Positions 37,975-44,407 of a stretch of 64,000 bases of DNA are shown here, in pieces. The stretch spans positions 1 through 64,000 of the forward strand of contig NZ_CANNGP010000004.1 in assembly GCF_947504105.1 (NCBI RefSeq), written 5' to 3'. The position numbers were made by a program, and so were the translations under genes. The first letter of the stretch is position 1. Each line of letters begins with the position of its first letter. Below the pieces are notes generated by a model that worked only from the letters and a program-made list of their open reading frames with translations, did not search any database and was not told the origin of the DNA. This DNA is from an uncultured Tateyamaria sp. Its GTDB lineage: Bacteria; Pseudomonadota; Alphaproteobacteria; Rhodobacterales; Rhodobacteraceae.

Positions 37975-38889
37975 TTAATTTATAATACCCTCAAGCTTCG
38001 TGATTTCAGCACGGACCCCCTGCACCAGAAGCTCGGCAAACTGGTTCAACCTTCGGTCACGCGTGTCCGACTGGTGCCGGATCAGGAAAAAGCTGCGTGA
38101 CAGCGACATCTCGGTCTGGAGCACGCGACGAAGACCAGGGGCGAACGGCAATGCAAAGTCATGCACCACGCCTATGCCTGCGCTGCGCCGTAACAGATTC
38201 AGCTGCACCGCAACCGAATTCGAGGCCAGTGCCACCCGTGCGACTCCGGCATCCGCCAAATAGTCCAGTTCTCGGTCAAAGATCATGTCAGGGATGTACC
38301 CAACGATCCGATGTGCATGCAGATCCGCCATGGTTTTTAGGCTGGGGGCACTGGCCAGGTAGGTATCGCTTGCAGCAAGATGCAGACGGTACTGCGTAAT
38401 GCGCTGGACCGTCAGTTGCCCCGCAGTGGGGGCGCTGACACCTATGGCAAGGTCGGCTTCACGTCTGGACAGGTTGAACACGCGTGGCAAGGCAATGATC
38501 TGAATATCAAGCGCCGGATGCGTCTGGCCCAATGCAGCGCAGACCTGCGGCAGGACGTAATTCGCACACCCGTCCGGTGCCCCGATACGCACTTGTCCTG
38601 TCAGCCCCGTCTCTGCCTTCGCGTGCCCTGCCCCCGATATTCCTTCTGTCGCTGCACGCATGGCAGCCTCGGCAGCCTCTGCCCGTTCAAGCAACTGCGC
38701 CCCCACATCGGTCAGCGCATATCCCTGAGGCGATTTGCGAAACAGGACCACGTCAAGATCCTGTTCCAGCCGCGCCACACGTCGACCAAGCGTGGCAGCA
38801 TCCTTGCGCACATCCTTGGCCGCCGCCGAAAGCGTTTCGGCGCGCGCCACCGCCAAAAATAAGCGCAGGTCGTCCCAGTGTGGCAGCAT
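37975..38889 (-). CDS. LysR-family regulator of the valine operon
   Basis: A 304-aa LysR-type regulator: HTH at 1-60 (WDDLRLFLAVARAETLSAAAKDVRKDAATLGRRVARLEQDLDVVLF) and a periplasmic-binding-protein-like effector domain. It is divergent from mmsA with 121 bp in between, where four TGCAAAA/TTTTGCA boxes are found. Control of valine/isobutyrate catabolism is inferred from position. ATG 38889 is chosen because the HTH starts soon after it. Confidence 0.9.
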   Translation of the reverse strand: MLPHWDDLRLFLAVARAETLSAAAKDVRKDAATLGRRVARLEQDLDVVLFRKSPQGYALTDVGAQLLERAEAAEAAMRAATEGISGAGHAKAETGLTGQVRIGAPDGCANYVLPQVCAALGQTHPALDIQIIALPRVFNLSRREADLAIGVSAPTAGQLTVQRITQYRLHLAASDTYLASAPSLKTMADLHAHRIVGYIPDMIFDRELDYLADAGVARVALASNSVAVQLNLLRRSAGIGVVHDFALPFAPGLRRVLQTEMSLSRSFFLIRHQSDTRDRRLNQFAELLVQGVRAEITKLEGIIN

Positions 38890-38905
38890 AAAAACCCCTT
38901 TGGTC

Positions 38906-38961
38906 TGCAAAAATGCAAAATGGTTTTGCCCACTTGCCTCTTTTGCAGGATATTTTGCAAG
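38906..38961. promoter_or_regulatory. Four TGCAAAA/TTTTGCA boxes between lysR and mmsA
   Basis: TGCAAAA occurs at 38906-38912 and 38914-38920, and TTTTGCA at 38941-38947 and 38953-38959. GCAAAA-TGG-TTTTGC at 38915-38929 is a perfect inverted repeat, and CTTGC/GCAAG (38933-38961) forms an outer one. This is the expected place for LysR operators controlling both directions. No -35/-10 pair was assigned. Confidence 0.5.
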
Positions 38962-39010
38962 ACTATCCTGCTGCCAACACCAAAACATCATCCACCCCCG
39001 GAGGACGCAA

Positions 39011-40510
39011 ATGCAAGAATTGACCCACTACATTGATGGTGCCCACGTCAAAGGAACATCGGGCCGTTTTGCTGACGTCATGAACCCGGCCACGGGTGAG
39101 GTACAGGCCACGGTGCCGCTCGCCTCGACAAGCGAATTGGCTCATGCAGTTGACGTTGCCACCAAGGCACAACCGGCCTGGGCGGCGACCAACCCACAGC
39201 GACGCGCGCGCGTCTTGATGAAATTCGTGGATCTGCTCAATCGTGACATGGACAAGCTGGCCGAGGTGCTGAGCCGCGAACACGGCAAGACTCTCCCGGA
39301 TGCCGCCGGCGATGTGCAGCGCGGACTTGAAGTTGTGGAATACTGCATCGGCGCGCCGCATCTGCTGAAAGGCGAATACACTGACAGCGCGGGTCCCGGC
39401 ATCGACATGTATTCCATGCGCCAGGCCCTTGGCGTCACGGCGGGCATCACGCCGTTCAACTTCCCCGCGATGATCCCGATGTGGATGTTCGCGCCCGCCA
39501 TTGCCTGCGGCAATGCTTTTATTCTCAAACCGTCCGAACGTGATCCGTCAGTCCCGCTGATGCTGGCCGAACTGATTGAGGAGGCCGGCCTGCCCAAGGG
39601 CATCCTGCAAGTGGTTAATGGGGACAAGGAGGCGGTGGACGCAATCCTGCACCACGATGTGATCCAGTCCGTAGGCTTCGTGGGATCGACCCCGATCGCC
39701 GAATACATCTATGCCACCGGCTGCGCAAACGGGAAGCGTGTTCAGTGCTTTGGTGGGGCCAAGAACCACATGATCGTCATGCCGGATGCTGACATGGATC
39801 AGGCGGCCGATGCACTGGTTGGCGCAGGATACGGTGCCGCAGGCGAACGCTGCATGGCGATCTCGGTCGCGGTGCCCGTGGGCGATGAGACGGCTGATCG
39901 CCTGATCGAGAAACTGGTGCCCCGGATCGAGAAGCTGAAGGTTGGCCCTTACACTGCTGGCAATGACGTGGACTACGGCCCCGTCGTGACCGCTGCCGCC
40001 AAGGCCAATATCGAACGGCTGGTGCAGACCGGCATCGATCAAGGCGCCGAATTGGTTGTCGATGGGCGTGATTTCAAATTGCAGGGCTACGAAGAAGGGT
40101 ACTTTTTGGGCCCACACCTCTTTGATCGTGCGACCAAGGACATGGACATCTACAAGCAGGAGATCTTTGGACCTGTCCTGACAACCGTCCGCGCGCAGAC
40201 TTACGAAGAAGCTATCGGCCTTGCCATGGACCACGAATACGGCAACGGCACCGCCATCTTCACCCGTGACGGCGATACGGCCCGCGATTTTGCGAACCGA
40301 ATCAATATTGGTATGGTCGGAATCAACGTGCCTATTCCGGTGCCACTTGCCTATCATACGTTCGGCGGTTGGAAAAAATCCGTATTTGGGGACCTGAATC
40401 AACATGGTCCTGACGCATTTAAGTTCTATACGCGTACGAAGACAGTGACGGCACGCTGGCCGTCCGGCATTAAGGAAGGCGGAGAATTCTTAATCCCCGT
40501 AATGGAGTAA
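39011..40510 (+). CDS. mmsA: Methylmalonate-semialdehyde dehydrogenase (CoA-acylating)
   Basis: A 499-aa aldehyde dehydrogenase of the MmsA type: N-terminal HYIDGAHVKGTSGRFADVMNPATGEV, ITPFNFPAMIPMWMFAPA, FVGSTPIAEYIYATG and catalytic Cys in GAAGERCMAISVAV. It converts methylmalonate semialdehyde to propionyl-CoA (and malonate semialdehyde to acetyl-CoA) at the end of valine catabolism. GGAGG sits before ATG 39011. It heads the operon downstream of the LysR gene. Confidence 0.95.
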   Translation: MQELTHYIDGAHVKGTSGRFADVMNPATGEVQATVPLASTSELAHAVDVATKAQPAWAATNPQRRARVLMKFVDLLNRDMDKLAEVLSREHGKTLPDAAGDVQRGLEVVEYCIGAPHLLKGEYTDSAGPGIDMYSMRQALGVTAGITPFNFPAMIPMWMFAPAIACGNAFILKPSERDPSVPLMLAELIEEAGLPKGILQVVNGDKEAVDAILHHDVIQSVGFVGSTPIAEYIYATGCANGKRVQCFGGAKNHMIVMPDADMDQAADALVGAGYGAAGERCMAISVAVPVGDETADRLIEKLVPRIEKLKVGPYTAGNDVDYGPVVTAAAKANIERLVQTGIDQGAELVVDGRDFKLQGYEEGYFLGPHLFDRATKDMDIYKQEIFGPVLTTVRAQTYEEAIGLAMDHEYGNGTAIFTRDGDTARDFANRINIGMVGINVPIPVPLAYHTFGGWKKSVFGDLNQHGPDAFKFYTRTKTVTARWPSGIKEGGEFLIPVME

Positions 40511-40511
40511 G

Positions 40512-40946
40512 ATGCCCATACAGTTTCGTATCCTTCCGGATCGCGGCCTTGTCGTGGTCCGGTATACTGGCCACGTTGCCATTGATGACACGTTGGACGC
40601 GACCCGCGTCTACTTGGCAGACCCCGACTATGCGCCCGGTCAAAAACAGCTCGTCGATTTCAGCACGATCACCGGGTACGAAAAGGATTATGTCCGTTTC
40701 ATGCAGATGCAGGCCAACAAAGCGGGACGCTTTGCGAACGCAGGCGTTCAATCACTGGTCGTCTACATCGCGCCGACCCCAATCAGCCGGGAACTCAGCA
40801 CTCTGTTCATCAAGTCCTGGGACGATGTGGATGCCGTAGTGCCCATGGTCCAGCAGTCCGAGGCCGAAGCACTGACCCTTCTCGGTCAGCCCGAAACAAC
40901 GGTGGAAATGCTCTTGGCCCCAGCGGGTGGACGGGCCTTGCAATAG
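40512..40946 (+). CDS. Hypothetical protein in the valine operon
   Basis: A 144-aa protein (MPIQFRILPDRGLVVVRYTGHVAIDDTLDATRVYLADPDYAPGQKQLVDFSTITGYE...) whose pattern of short strands and helices recalls SpoIIAA/STAS-like proteins; this is a structural guess only. It starts one base after the mmsA stop. A role in controlling or organising the pathway enzymes is possible but unproven. Confidence 0.7.
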   Translation: MPIQFRILPDRGLVVVRYTGHVAIDDTLDATRVYLADPDYAPGQKQLVDFSTITGYEKDYVRFMQMQANKAGRFANAGVQSLVVYIAPTPISRELSTLFIKSWDDVDAVVPMVQQSEAEALTLLGQPETTVEMLLAPAGGRALQ

Positions 40947-41007: not shown

Positions 41008-42150
41008 ATGGACTTCGCACTGACCGAAGAACAAACAGCAATTTTCGACATGGCCCATGCCTTTGGCCAGGCAGAAATTGCACCCCACGCCCGCGACTGG
41101 GAAGCCGCCGGCACCATCCCCAAAGATCTGTGGCCCAAGGTGGGCGAACTTGGCTTTGCCTCCCTCTATATCTCGGGGGACGCGGGTGGCGCGGGCCTGT
41201 CGCGGCTCGACGCAACACTGGTGTTCGAAGCGCTCAGTATGGCCTGTCCTTCCGTCGTGGCCTTCCTGTCGATCCACAACATGTGCGCAAAGATGCTTGA
41301 CAGTTTTGCGGATGACGATCTGAAGGCACGCGTGATGCCCGACGTGCTGAGTATGAACACAGTCCTCAGCTACTGCCTGACCGAACCCGGCTCAGGCTCG
41401 GATGCCGCCGCCCTGCGCACGCGGGCGGATCGGACGAACGAAGGGTACTCCCTGAACGGAACCAAGGCATTTATCTCGGGCGGTGGATACTCCGACGCCT
41501 ATGTCTGCATGGTCCGCACGGGCGAGGATGGACCCAAGGGCGTCTCTACCGTCTATGTGGAAGACGGAACCGATGGGCTTTCCTTTGGCGGATTGGAAGA
41601 CAAGATGGGCTGGCGCAGCCAACCCACCGCGCAGGTTCAGTTCGACAATTGCAATATCCCCAGCGGCAATCTGGTTGGGGAAGAAGGTCAGGGTTTCAAA
41701 TACGCAATGATGGGGTTGGATGGCGGCCGCCTGAACATAGCCGCCTGTTCTCTCGGCGCTGCACAGACGGCTTTGAATGTGACGCTGGCCTATATGGGCG
41801 AGCGCAAGGCGTTTGGTCAGCCCATCGACCAGTTCCAGGGCCTGCAATTCCGCCTCGCGGATATGGAGATCGAACTGCAAGCCGCCCGCACCTTCCTGCG
41901 CCAAGCCGCATGGAAGCTCGACAACGGCGCGCCTGATGCCACCAAATTCTGCGCCATGGCCAAGAAGTTCGTAACCGACGCTGGGTCCAAGGTCGTTGAC
42001 CAATGCCTGCAATTGCACGGCGGTTATGGCTATCTGGCGGATTACGGTATCGAAAAATTGGTCCGCGATTTGCGCGTGCATCAGATCCTCGAAGGTACCA
42101 ACGAAATCATGCGTGTGATCGTGGCGCGCGACATGTTGAAGAACCGATGA
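41008..42150 (+). CDS. Acyl-CoA dehydrogenase, likely isobutyryl-CoA dehydrogenase
   Basis: A 380-aa FAD-dependent acyl-CoA dehydrogenase: YCLTEPGSGSDAAALRTRA, the second FAD motif and a catalytic Glu expected in HQILEGTNEIMRVIVARDML near the C-terminus, preceded by LQLHGGYGYLADYGIEKLVRDLRV. Its place between mmsA and the hydrolase-dehydrogenase gene suggests isobutyryl-CoA as substrate, forming methacrylyl-CoA. The ribosome binding site is AAGGGGAGG. The stop overlaps the next gene (ATGA). Confidence 0.93.
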   Translation: MDFALTEEQTAIFDMAHAFGQAEIAPHARDWEAAGTIPKDLWPKVGELGFASLYISGDAGGAGLSRLDATLVFEALSMACPSVVAFLSIHNMCAKMLDSFADDDLKARVMPDVLSMNTVLSYCLTEPGSGSDAAALRTRADRTNEGYSLNGTKAFISGGGYSDAYVCMVRTGEDGPKGVSTVYVEDGTDGLSFGGLEDKMGWRSQPTAQVQFDNCNIPSGNLVGEEGQGFKYAMMGLDGGRLNIAACSLGAAQTALNVTLAYMGERKAFGQPIDQFQGLQFRLADMEIELQAARTFLRQAAWKLDNGAPDATKFCAMAKKFVTDAGSKVVDQCLQLHGGYGYLADYGIEKLVRDLRVHQILEGTNEIMRVIVARDMLKNR

Positions 42151-42497
42151 CCGGCATCAAGCGCTTCGACACGGACAAACGGATGAGCCAGGCGGTTGTG
42201 CACAGTCAAACCGCTTATCTTGCCGGGCAATGTGGTACCGCCTTTGCACCGATCCAGACCCAAACTCGCGAAGCGCTGGCCAAGGTCGATCATCACCTTG
42301 CCGCCATAGGCACTGACAAAACCCGATTGCTGTCCGTGACCATCTGGCTCGCCTCCATATCCGACTATGACGCCATCAACGAGGTTTGGGACGCATGGGT
42401 GCCCGCTGGTACGGCCCCCGCCCGGTCGTGCGGAGAGGTACAGATTGGTGGCGAAGGCTACGACATCGAAATCATCTGCACGGCGGCCCTGCCATGA
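42147..42497 (+). CDS. RidA/YjgF-family protein
   Basis: A 116-aa protein of the Rid family (SQAVVHSQTAYLAGQCG, QTREALAKVDHHLAAIGTDKTRLLSVTIWLASISDYDAINEVWDAW, and APARSCGEV with the conserved Arg). Rid proteins hydrolyse reactive enamines/imines, which arise in branched-chain amino acid metabolism. It overlaps the acyl-CoA dehydrogenase gene and the following gene by 4 bp each, so it belongs to the operon. Confidence 0.9.
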   Translation: MTGIKRFDTDKRMSQAVVHSQTAYLAGQCGTAFAPIQTQTREALAKVDHHLAAIGTDKTRLLSVTIWLASISDYDAINEVWDAWVPAGTAPARSCGEVQIGGEGYDIEIICTAALP

Positions 42498-44407
42498 CCG
42501 ACATCTCCATCCGCATCACCGGGCGCGCGGGCCGGATCACCCTGCGGCGTCCCCAAGCGCTCAACGCGATGACCTATGAGATGTGCCTCGCCATCGAAGC
42601 GGCATTGGACGCATGGCGCAGCGATGACAGTGTCGAAGTGGTGGTGTTCGACGCGATCGGCGACCGCGCCTTCTGTTCGGGCGGTGACATTGCCGAACTC
42701 TACGAAACTGGGACCAAGGGCGACTATGCCTACGGCCAGAAATTCTGGGCCGACGAATACCGCCTGAACCACAAAATCTTTCACTACCCCAAGCCGGTGG
42801 TCAGCTTCCTGCCAGGGTTCACCATGGGCGGCGGCGTCGGCATCGGCTGCCACGGGTCGCACCGCGTCGTGGGCGACAGCAGCCAGATCGCCATGCCCGA
42901 ATGCGGCATCGGACTTGTTCCGGATGTGGGCGGGTCGCTAATGCTTGCCCTCGCCCCGGGTCGCCTGGGGGAGTACCTGGGCACGACCGCCGCGCGGATG
43001 AATGCAAGCGACGCGATCTTCGCTGGCTTCGCCGACCACTACGTGGCCGAAGCACATTGGCCCACCCTGATTGCCACGCTTGAGGCGACGGGCGACACAT
43101 CCTGTATCGCTGCCGCCGCCACGGACCCCGCCCCCGGACCGCTTCAACAAGCAATGCCTGACATCGACAAGCACTTTCATGGCGCGTCCCTCAACGATGT
43201 GCTGACCACGCTGCGGGACGAGGACAGCGACTTTGCCCGCGGTACACGCAAGCGCATGGGCCGCAACAGCCCCCTCTCCATGGCGTGCACCATCGAAGCC
43301 CTGCACCGCCTGCGCGGTCCATCGCTGACCTTGGACAAGGCGCTGGACCTTGAATACCGTTTCACCGCCCGAGCAATGGAGCATGGTGACTTCCTTGAAG
43401 GGATCAGGGCGGCCATCATAGACAAGGACCGCACACCGAAATGGCAATACGCCGACGGCACGGTCCCGCCCACAGCGGTCAGCAAGATGCTGATGCCGCT
43501 TGGGGACATGGCACTCAAACTGGGAGGAACGGGCATGAAGATCGGATTTGTTGGGCTGGGCAATATGGGTGCCCCGATGGCCGCGAACCTTGCCAAGGCC
43601 GGGCATACGGTGACCGGGTTCGACGTGGCCGGAACCACGGCCGAAGGGGTCACGAACGCCTCAAGCGCAGCAGAGGCGGCCGCTGATCAGGACATTGTCA
43701 TCACGATGCTGCCGAACGGAAACATCCTGCGCGCGGTAGCCGCCGACGTGATCCCGGCGATGAAAGCGGGCGCCACGCTGATCGACTGTTCGACCGTTGA
43801 TGTGGAAAGCGCGCGTGCGGTCGCCGAACAGGCGGATGCTGCCGGGCTGGGCTGTGTCGATGCGCCGGTGTCAGGTGGCATTGGCGGCGCTGCCGGTGGA
43901 ACGCTCACCTTCATGGCGGGCGGCAGCACCGCGGCTTTCGAAGCCGCCAAGCCCCTCTTCGACATCATGGGCCAGAAGGCCGTGCATTGCGGTGACGCAG
44001 GTGCAGGTCAGGCGGCCAAGATCTGCAACAACATGATCCTGGGCGCCACCATGATCGCCACCTGCGAAGCCTTTGCACTGGCCGACAAGCTGGGGCTGGA
44101 TCGGCAAAAGATGTTCGACGTGGTCAGCACATCATCGGGCTATTCATGGACGATGAACGCCTATTGCCCTGCCCCGGGCGTTGGCCCGCAAAGCCCCGCG
44201 GACAATGGCTACACCCCCGGCTTCGCAGCAGAACTGATGCTGAAAGACCTCGGGCTGAGCCAGCAGGCGGCTGAGGCTGTCGACGCGGACACGCCGATGG
44301 GGCAACGCGCGCTTGAACTCTACCGCCAGTTTGTCGAAAATGAAGGTGGGCTGGGTAAGGATTTCAGCGCAATGCTACCCCGGTTCGAAACCCGGGGGCG
44401 CGACTGA
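42494..44407 (+). CDS. Fused 3-hydroxyisobutyryl-CoA hydrolase / 3-hydroxyisobutyrate dehydrogenase
   Basis: A single 637-aa reading frame joins two complete enzymes of valine catabolism. Residues 1-347 are a HIBCH-type crotonase-fold hydrolase (RPQALNAM, FCSGGDIAELYE, GFTMGGGVGIGCH, MPECGIGLVPDVGGS). Residues 348-637 are 3-hydroxyisobutyrate dehydrogenase MmsB (MKIGFVGLGNMGAPMAANL, DAPVSGGIGGAAGGTL, GAGQAAKICNNM with the catalytic Lys). There is no stop codon between LGDMALKLGGTG and MKIGFV. GGGAGG lies 8 bases before the internal ATG (43535), so a separate MmsB may also be made by internal initiation. The consecutive steps hydroxyisobutyryl-CoA to hydroxyisobutyrate to methylmalonate semialdehyde could be channelled. 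Confidence 0.85.
   Translation: MTDISIRITGRAGRITLRRPQALNAMTYEMCLAIEAALDAWRSDDSVEVVVFDAIGDRAFCSGGDIAELYETGTKGDYAYGQKFWADEYRLNHKIFHYPKPVVSFLPGFTMGGGVGIGCHGSHRVVGDSSQIAMPECGIGLVPDVGGSLMLALAPGRLGEYLGTTAARMNASDAIFAGFADHYVAEAHWPTLIATLEATGDTSCIAAAATDPAPGPLQQAMPDIDKHFHGASLNDVLTTLRDEDSDFARGTRKRMGRNSPLSMACTIEALHRLRGPSLTLDKALDLEYRFTARAMEHGDFLEGIRAAIIDKDRTPKWQYADGTVPPTAVSKMLMPLGDMALKLGGTGMKIGFVGLGNMGAPMAANLAKAGHTVTGFDVAGTTAEGVTNASSAAEAAADQDIVITMLPNGNILRAVAADVIPAMKAGATLIDCSTVDVESARAVAEQADAAGLGCVDAPVSGGIGGAAGGTLTFMAGGSTAAFEAAKPLFDIMGQKAVHCGDAGAGQAAKICNNMILGATMIATCEAFALADKLGLDRQKMFDVVSTSSGYSWTMNAYCPAPGVGPQSPADNGYTPGFAAELMLKDLGLSQQAAEAVDADTPMGQRALELYRQFVENEGGLGKDFSAMLPRFETRGRD

Follow-up and report, generated by a model that had tools for sequence, protein, structure and literature searches.

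The window analysed here is a 64,000-nucleotide stretch of DNA from an uncultured Tateyamaria sp., a marine bacterium. In it, two enzymes of valine breakdown that are separate gene products in most bacteria seem to share one reading frame. The locus raises the question of whether this fusion is real and, if so, which proteins the gene makes and whether selection keeps its two parts joined.

The fused gene and its surroundings

The open reading frame at 42494-44407 on the forward strand encodes 637 residues and has no internal stops. It was divided into two enzyme parts.

42494-44407, forward strand: fused gene for a 3-hydroxyisobutyryl-CoA hydrolase and a 3-hydroxyisobutyrate dehydrogenase, 637 aa (open reading frame, Pfam, NCBIfam and genus comparison)
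42494-43519, forward strand: hydrolase part, residues 1-342 (NCBIfam match and alignment to PDB chains)
43535-44407, forward strand: dehydrogenase part, 290 aa plus stop (NCBIfam match and alignment to PDB chains)

Pfam assigned the domains ECH_2 (residues 13-329), NAD_binding_2 (349-500) and NAD_binding_11 (503-628) to the 637-aa protein. The NCBIfam model PRK05617 matched residues 3-337 with 369.1 bits against a curated cut-off of 274, covering model positions 10-349 of 356. TIGR01692 (HIBADH) matched residues 352-628 with 364.8 bits against an equivalog cut-off of 291.6, covering positions 1-284 of 288. With both models above their cut-offs in a single 637-aa frame, the original prediction of two apparently full-length enzymes without a stop between them held.

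The alignment of the hydrolase part with the Rhodobacter sphaeroides chain 4j2u (365 residues) reaches residue 359 of that chain, so this part is complete or nearly so. It carries the MGGGVG and MPE...PDVGG stretches common to human HIBCH (3bpt) and 4j2u, and its active-site stretches AMPECGIGLVPDVGG align with human AMPETAIGLFPDVGG; we take these to surround the conserved active-site Glu and Asp. By these matches it is a 3-hydroxyisobutyryl-CoA hydrolase, predicted to hydrolyze 3-hydroxyisobutyryl-CoA. The protein of the window thus shares its conserved stretches with the known PRK05617/ECH_2 hydrolases (4j2u and 3bpt) and differs from them by the added C-terminal dehydrogenase. In the dehydrogenase part, the stretches GLGNMG, DAPVSGG and GQAAKICNN are intact in alignments with 5y8g and 2gf2, and residues 5-291 of 5y8g (295 residues) align with it. 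Presumably GLGNMG binds the dinucleotide and the Lys of GQAAKICNN is catalytic. Compared with known MmsB/HIBADH enzymes (TIGR01692; 5y8g and 2gf2), the match is near full length, and the differences are that the enzyme of the window is fused at its N terminus and keeps its own start signals. A search of the genome gave no second full-length copy of either enzyme: the remaining dehydrogenase-like matches had at most 34% identity, and no other match covered the whole hydrolase.

The genes upstream of the fusion were annotated as well.

39011-40510, forward strand: CoA-acylating methylmalonate-semialdehyde dehydrogenase of the mmsA type (TIGR01722 above cut-off), the next pathway step
40512-40946, forward strand: 144-aa open reading frame without a family, between mmsA and the acyl-CoA dehydrogenase gene
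41008-42150, forward strand: acyl-CoA dehydrogenase (family search)
42147-42497, forward strand: Rid-family protein (PF01042), in ATGA overlap with both neighbours

Judged by this set of enzymes, the genes around the fusion look like a valine-degradation operon, in which the position of the acyl-CoA dehydrogenase suggests that it is probably an isobutyryl-CoA dehydrogenase. The 144-aa frame had no Pfam or NCBIfam match at E <= 0.001. A LysR-type regulator-like frame, assigned by eye, lies divergently to mmsA at 37975-38991 on the reverse strand and could regulate the operon. The stop of the Rid-family gene (42497) overlaps the start codon of the fused gene. A Rid-family gene occupies this place in 8 of the 20 genus genomes; none of the other loci searched, many of which carry only 300 bases of flank, gave a match at E 1e-10. 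In the 12 genus genomes that lack it, the end of the acyl-CoA dehydrogenase gene abuts the start of the fused gene (nine genomes) or is separated from it by a gap (three genomes).

Distribution and origin of the fusion

The fusion was full length and free of stops in all 20 Tateyamaria genomes examined, the source genome included; the other 19 proteins were 77-96% identical to it. A sequencing or assembly error that removed the stop between the two parts had to be considered, since a single inserted G separates the Tateyamaria frame from the overlap seen in a split relative. However, such an error was ruled out by the 20 genus genomes, and the fusion is also uninterrupted in two single-contig genomes of other genera (G074 and G160), leaving this explanation with a negligible probability. 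The family models, the operon neighbours and the conservation throughout the genus agree with one another, and they confirmed what had been predicted from the sequence, namely a real fusion, in one frame, of two consecutive valine-pathway enzymes.

To define how widely the fusion occurs, 295 genomes were drawn from the Rhodobacteraceae, 248 of which gave a match at E <= 1e-90. At least 32 of the 83 loci with both halves examined in this draw were fused. The number of genomes with a fusion rises to at least 33 of 295 with G138, whose hydrolase contains a run of N and which was counted as fused after inspection. For these counts, full-length fused genes rank first among the matches listed, and fragmented ones may be missed. 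Carriers include Ascidiaceihabitans, Sulfitobacter brevis, Marivita, Thalassococcus, Pelagimonas and Tropicibacter. In many other Rhodobacteraceae the two genes lie side by side, separated by an in-frame stop or read in different frames.

Outside the family, no fusion was found at E <= 1e-130 in 385 genomes of the class and 398 of the phylum; these draws include family members and overlap, and fusions weaker than E 1e-130 would escape. At this threshold, 28 matches (class) and 7 matches (phylum) outside the family span both halves, and each contains at least one stop; G377 is present in both sets, and the match in G452 begins at query residue 59. These joined matches agree with the earlier statement that the enzymes are encoded by separate genes in most bacteria. 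Because all of them contain stops, the split arrangement is likely ancestral. The plasmid matches listed (30 of 313) were all in two pieces.

Altogether, 179 loci with both halves were compared, 65 fused and 114 split. In many split Rhodobacteraceae, the Shine-Dalgarno (SD) sequence of the dehydrogenase is spelled by the last hydrolase codons, often as GAGGAGGAG, and the hydrolase stop overlaps the ATG or precedes it by a few bases. Other split pairs have the SD sequence after the hydrolase stop. Split hydrolase-mmsB pairs such as L167 and L113 therefore resemble the locus of the window in their genes, their order and an SD often placed in the last hydrolase codons, and differ in the stop or frame change that separates the genes. 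The Tateyamaria junction AAACTGGGAGGAACGGGCATGAAG differs by one inserted G and two substitutions from that of L167, a split Sulfitobacter MAG (AAACTGGAGGAACAGGCATGAAA), where the stop TGA lies inside ATGA. The simplest origin of the Tateyamaria fusion would be a one-base insertion beside the SD, in which the additional G in CTGGAGG opened the frame across a former ATGA overlap. Elsewhere a changed stop codon would suffice, for example in pairs like L044 (GAGGAGTAAGCCATG).

The fused state recurs within the family. A careful tree required 11 changes of the fused label (bootstrap 10-12), at least 6 of them forced by well supported branches. With FastTree and 170 distinct rows, 15 changes were counted, of which starred branches forced at least 9, and a quick tree of 86 rows (the family draw plus four outgroup rows, with L108 and L109 left out and L233 not included) gave 10. 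These change counts cannot separate gains of the fusion from losses. A three-state model (fused plus two split states, rates per neutral substitution) was also fitted. Its D-to-F rate was high and its S-to-F and F-to-D rates sat at the lower bound, so the fit does not resolve the routes between the states.

Start signals at the junction

The short stretch between the two enzymes contains the elements of a second translation start.

43520-43534, forward strand: linker LGGTG, codons CTG GGA GGA ACG GGC, five residues, variable in sequence across the genus
43522-43527, forward strand: GGGAGG, SD-like site within the linker, separated by 7 nt from the ATG at 43535
43535-43537, forward strand: internal in-frame ATG (Met348), putative start of a free dehydrogenase, retained by 19 of the 20 genus genomes and replaced by ATT in L010

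The linker and the GGGAGG ahead of ATG 43535 were thus located where they had been described, and the hexamer is complementary to the 16S-type tail of this same genome, GGATCACCTCCTTT. Among 61 distinct fused genes, the internal site has an aligned ATG in 54, TTG in one and ATT in one; the remaining five have an ATG three codons upstream of the aligned start, still in frame. Thus, an in-frame ATG or TTG is kept in 60 of 61 fused genes. At these 60 starts, the energy of the duplex with the anti-SD averaged -8.9 kcal/mol and was -5 kcal/mol or lower in 59, very similar to the 89 split starts (mean -9.4 kcal/mol; 88 of 89 at or below -5). For comparison, the mean over the fused genes' 1492 remaining in-frame ATGs was -2.9 kcal/mol, with 22% of them at -5 kcal/mol or lower. 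A first scan kept, for each gene, the best of eight codon positions, which in L010, L020 and L062 was not the true start; when the energies were recomputed at the true starts, the mean was unchanged.

Other properties of the internal start also match those of the split genes. RNA structure there is low (+7.4 kcal/mol relative to the dehydrogenase mean, and +7.2 in split genes). AT3 over the first seven dehydrogenase codons of the fused genes is 0.40, compared to 0.26 over the remaining dehydrogenase codons and 0.25 downstream of 330 other ATGs in frame. This early AT3 exceeds the mean of the gene's own dehydrogenase in 52 of the 60 fused genes and in 77 of the 89 split ones.

Within the genus, codon choice at the linker was analyzed. 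Gly344 is encoded by GGA in 17 of 17 cases and Gly345 in 15 of 16, and these positions rank first and fourth of 69 Gly columns for third-base conservation; A makes up only 169 of the 1351 Gly third bases. Where the linker reads GE, EG, EE or RG, a GGAG or GAGG core persists. The SD bases GGAGG are conserved at synonymous sites in Tateyamaria, indicating selection beyond the protein. Resampling codons with the residues fixed gave p<0.05 in 16 of 61 fused genes (median p 0.18). The power of this comparison is low, as the SD is already dictated by the residues (EEE, GG).

Taken at the sequence level, the dehydrogenase's own start in the fused genes looks alive, although the retained signals are ancestral and could partly reflect inertia. 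The SD, the ATG, the low structure and the codon conservation support the predicted production of both a 637-aa protein and a free dehydrogenase. If the gene were instead an obligate bifunctional enzyme, made as a 67-kDa protein only, the SD sequence would be a relic. Two fused genes fit such a reading: in L010 (G001), ATT replaces the ATG while the SD is intact at -10.2 kcal/mol, and in L131, from a Marivita MAG, the ATG is present and the SD is missing. In these lineages the free dehydrogenase may be dispensable, and the two junctions are natural test cases for the need for it. However, a relic would not be expected to hold its SD bases at synonymous sites across a genus, nor to have, in five fused genes, an ATG that lies three codons upstream and is still in frame. 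We consider an obligate bifunctional enzyme improbable.

The fusion could also exist to channel 3-hydroxyisobutyrate from the hydrolase to the dehydrogenase, as the two steps are consecutive in valine breakdown, an order that follows from the family names and the known pathway. The possibility of channelling, raised in the original prediction, gained no support. An AlphaFold model of the 637-aa protein was obtained with a shallow alignment of 16 sequences. Its hydrolase part is good, and both folds match 4j2u and 5y8g. Its pTM is 0.56 and its ten-residue mean pLDDT falls below 60 from about residue 511, so the model offers no trustworthy inter-domain geometry. The linker is not conserved and varies in both sequence and length, and the retained signals for a free dehydrogenase speak against strict coupling; both argue against a dedicated channel, which we regard as slightly less probable still than the obligate bifunctional enzyme.

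Probable products of the gene and possible selection on the fusion

Because the start signals are kept at the joint, one gene probably makes joined and free enzyme. We propose, with reasonable though not full confidence, a dual-product gene in the valine-degradation operon. Ribosomes starting at 42494 would produce a hydrolase-dehydrogenase fusion of ~67 kDa, and others starting anew at ATG 43535, with its retained ribosome-binding site, would yield a free dehydrogenase of ~30 kDa, so that a single mRNA would be the source of both. The fusion would derive from two closely packed genes whose translation was probably coupled. Tethered and free dehydrogenase subunits may co-assemble; if so, the fusion would guarantee each hydrolase a minimum amount of dehydrogenase, to which the internal start would add. 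Production of both proteins, subunit mixing and benefit are inferred. A stronger version, which we hold only tentatively, is that the arrangement is itself selected. The fusion and the free dehydrogenase would then form mixed oligomers in a ratio set by the internal ribosome-binding site. Switches between overlapping, abutting and fused forms have occurred time and again in the Rhodobacteraceae, nearly always with this site kept, and on this reading the fusion is a tunable setting of stoichiometry, not an accident.

Alternatively, loss of the stop may have been nearly neutral, with the internal-start dehydrogenase serving the cell and the hydrolase merely tolerating a functionless C-terminal extension. 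The 11 changes of the fused label on the family tree and the start signals, equal in fused and split genes, are consistent with this. Conversely, all 20 Tateyamaria species examined are still fused, and no stop was seen in the linker among these 20 genomes. How many neutral nonsense events should be expected on the genus tree depends on the stretch counted: 8.4 for residues 342-347 (4.0 if the SD is spared), 11.0 for residues 338-347 (6.7) and 5.7 for residues 344-347 (1.3). These numbers rest on fitted 4-fold rates with a saturated 4-fold tree length of 13.9; with the parsimony bound of 6.4 they are approximately halved, to about 1.9-3.9 for residues 342-347. By the strictest count (residues 344-347, SD spared), only 1.3 stops are expected and their absence is unsurprising, whereas the wider counts over residues 342-347 leave several expected stops unaccounted for.

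The fitted fused-to-split rate is 0.07 per neutral substitution; raising it to 0.18 costs 1.7 log-likelihood units and raising it to 0.37 costs 7.1. Neutral nonsense rates run from 0.094 (residues 344-347, SD spared), which is close to the fitted value, through 0.29 (residues 342-347), about four times above it, to 0.79. The argument from neutral stops is fragile because it depends on the stretch counted and on a saturated tree length. Most ways of counting, but not all, thus suggest that selection keeps the fusion. We consider nearly neutral stop loss unlikely, and a little less likely than the selected arrangement of joined and free enzyme set out above.

Gene fusions between pathway neighbours are a known kind, and so are in-phase internal starts. 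Bacillus subtilis aspartokinase II, for example, is made as two proteins by means of an in-phase internal start. Archaeal Cas11b is a further example (PMC11899642). The fused gene of the window would resemble both in its single frame, its internal start and the long and short products expected from it. Unlike them, it would yield a complete second enzyme as its short product, and its likely origin can be read from split relatives. No description of a hydrolase-dehydrogenase fusion was found in text searches of an open-access library. Passages of a Roseobacter-clade proteome study name 3-hydroxyisobutyrate dehydrogenase and mention no fusion (PMC6308992), and the enzyme's name is absent from the passages of a paper on frame transitions (PMC3711429). 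The joining of operon neighbours with an in-phase internal start is of a known kind; this case, with its series of fused and split forms, appears to be new.

This series is a natural one, in which a single gene pair occurs within one family as frame-overlapping, abutting in frame and fused. The fused label changes ~11 times, and almost every member examined retains the downstream ribosome-binding site. The series makes testable whether fusions of operon genes are selected or merely tolerated losses of a stop, and whether a retained internal start keeps the second enzyme available. For annotation, the valine-pathway dehydrogenase of these species forms one domain within a 637-aa protein, and its likely 290-aa product would be invisible in a gene table with one product per frame.
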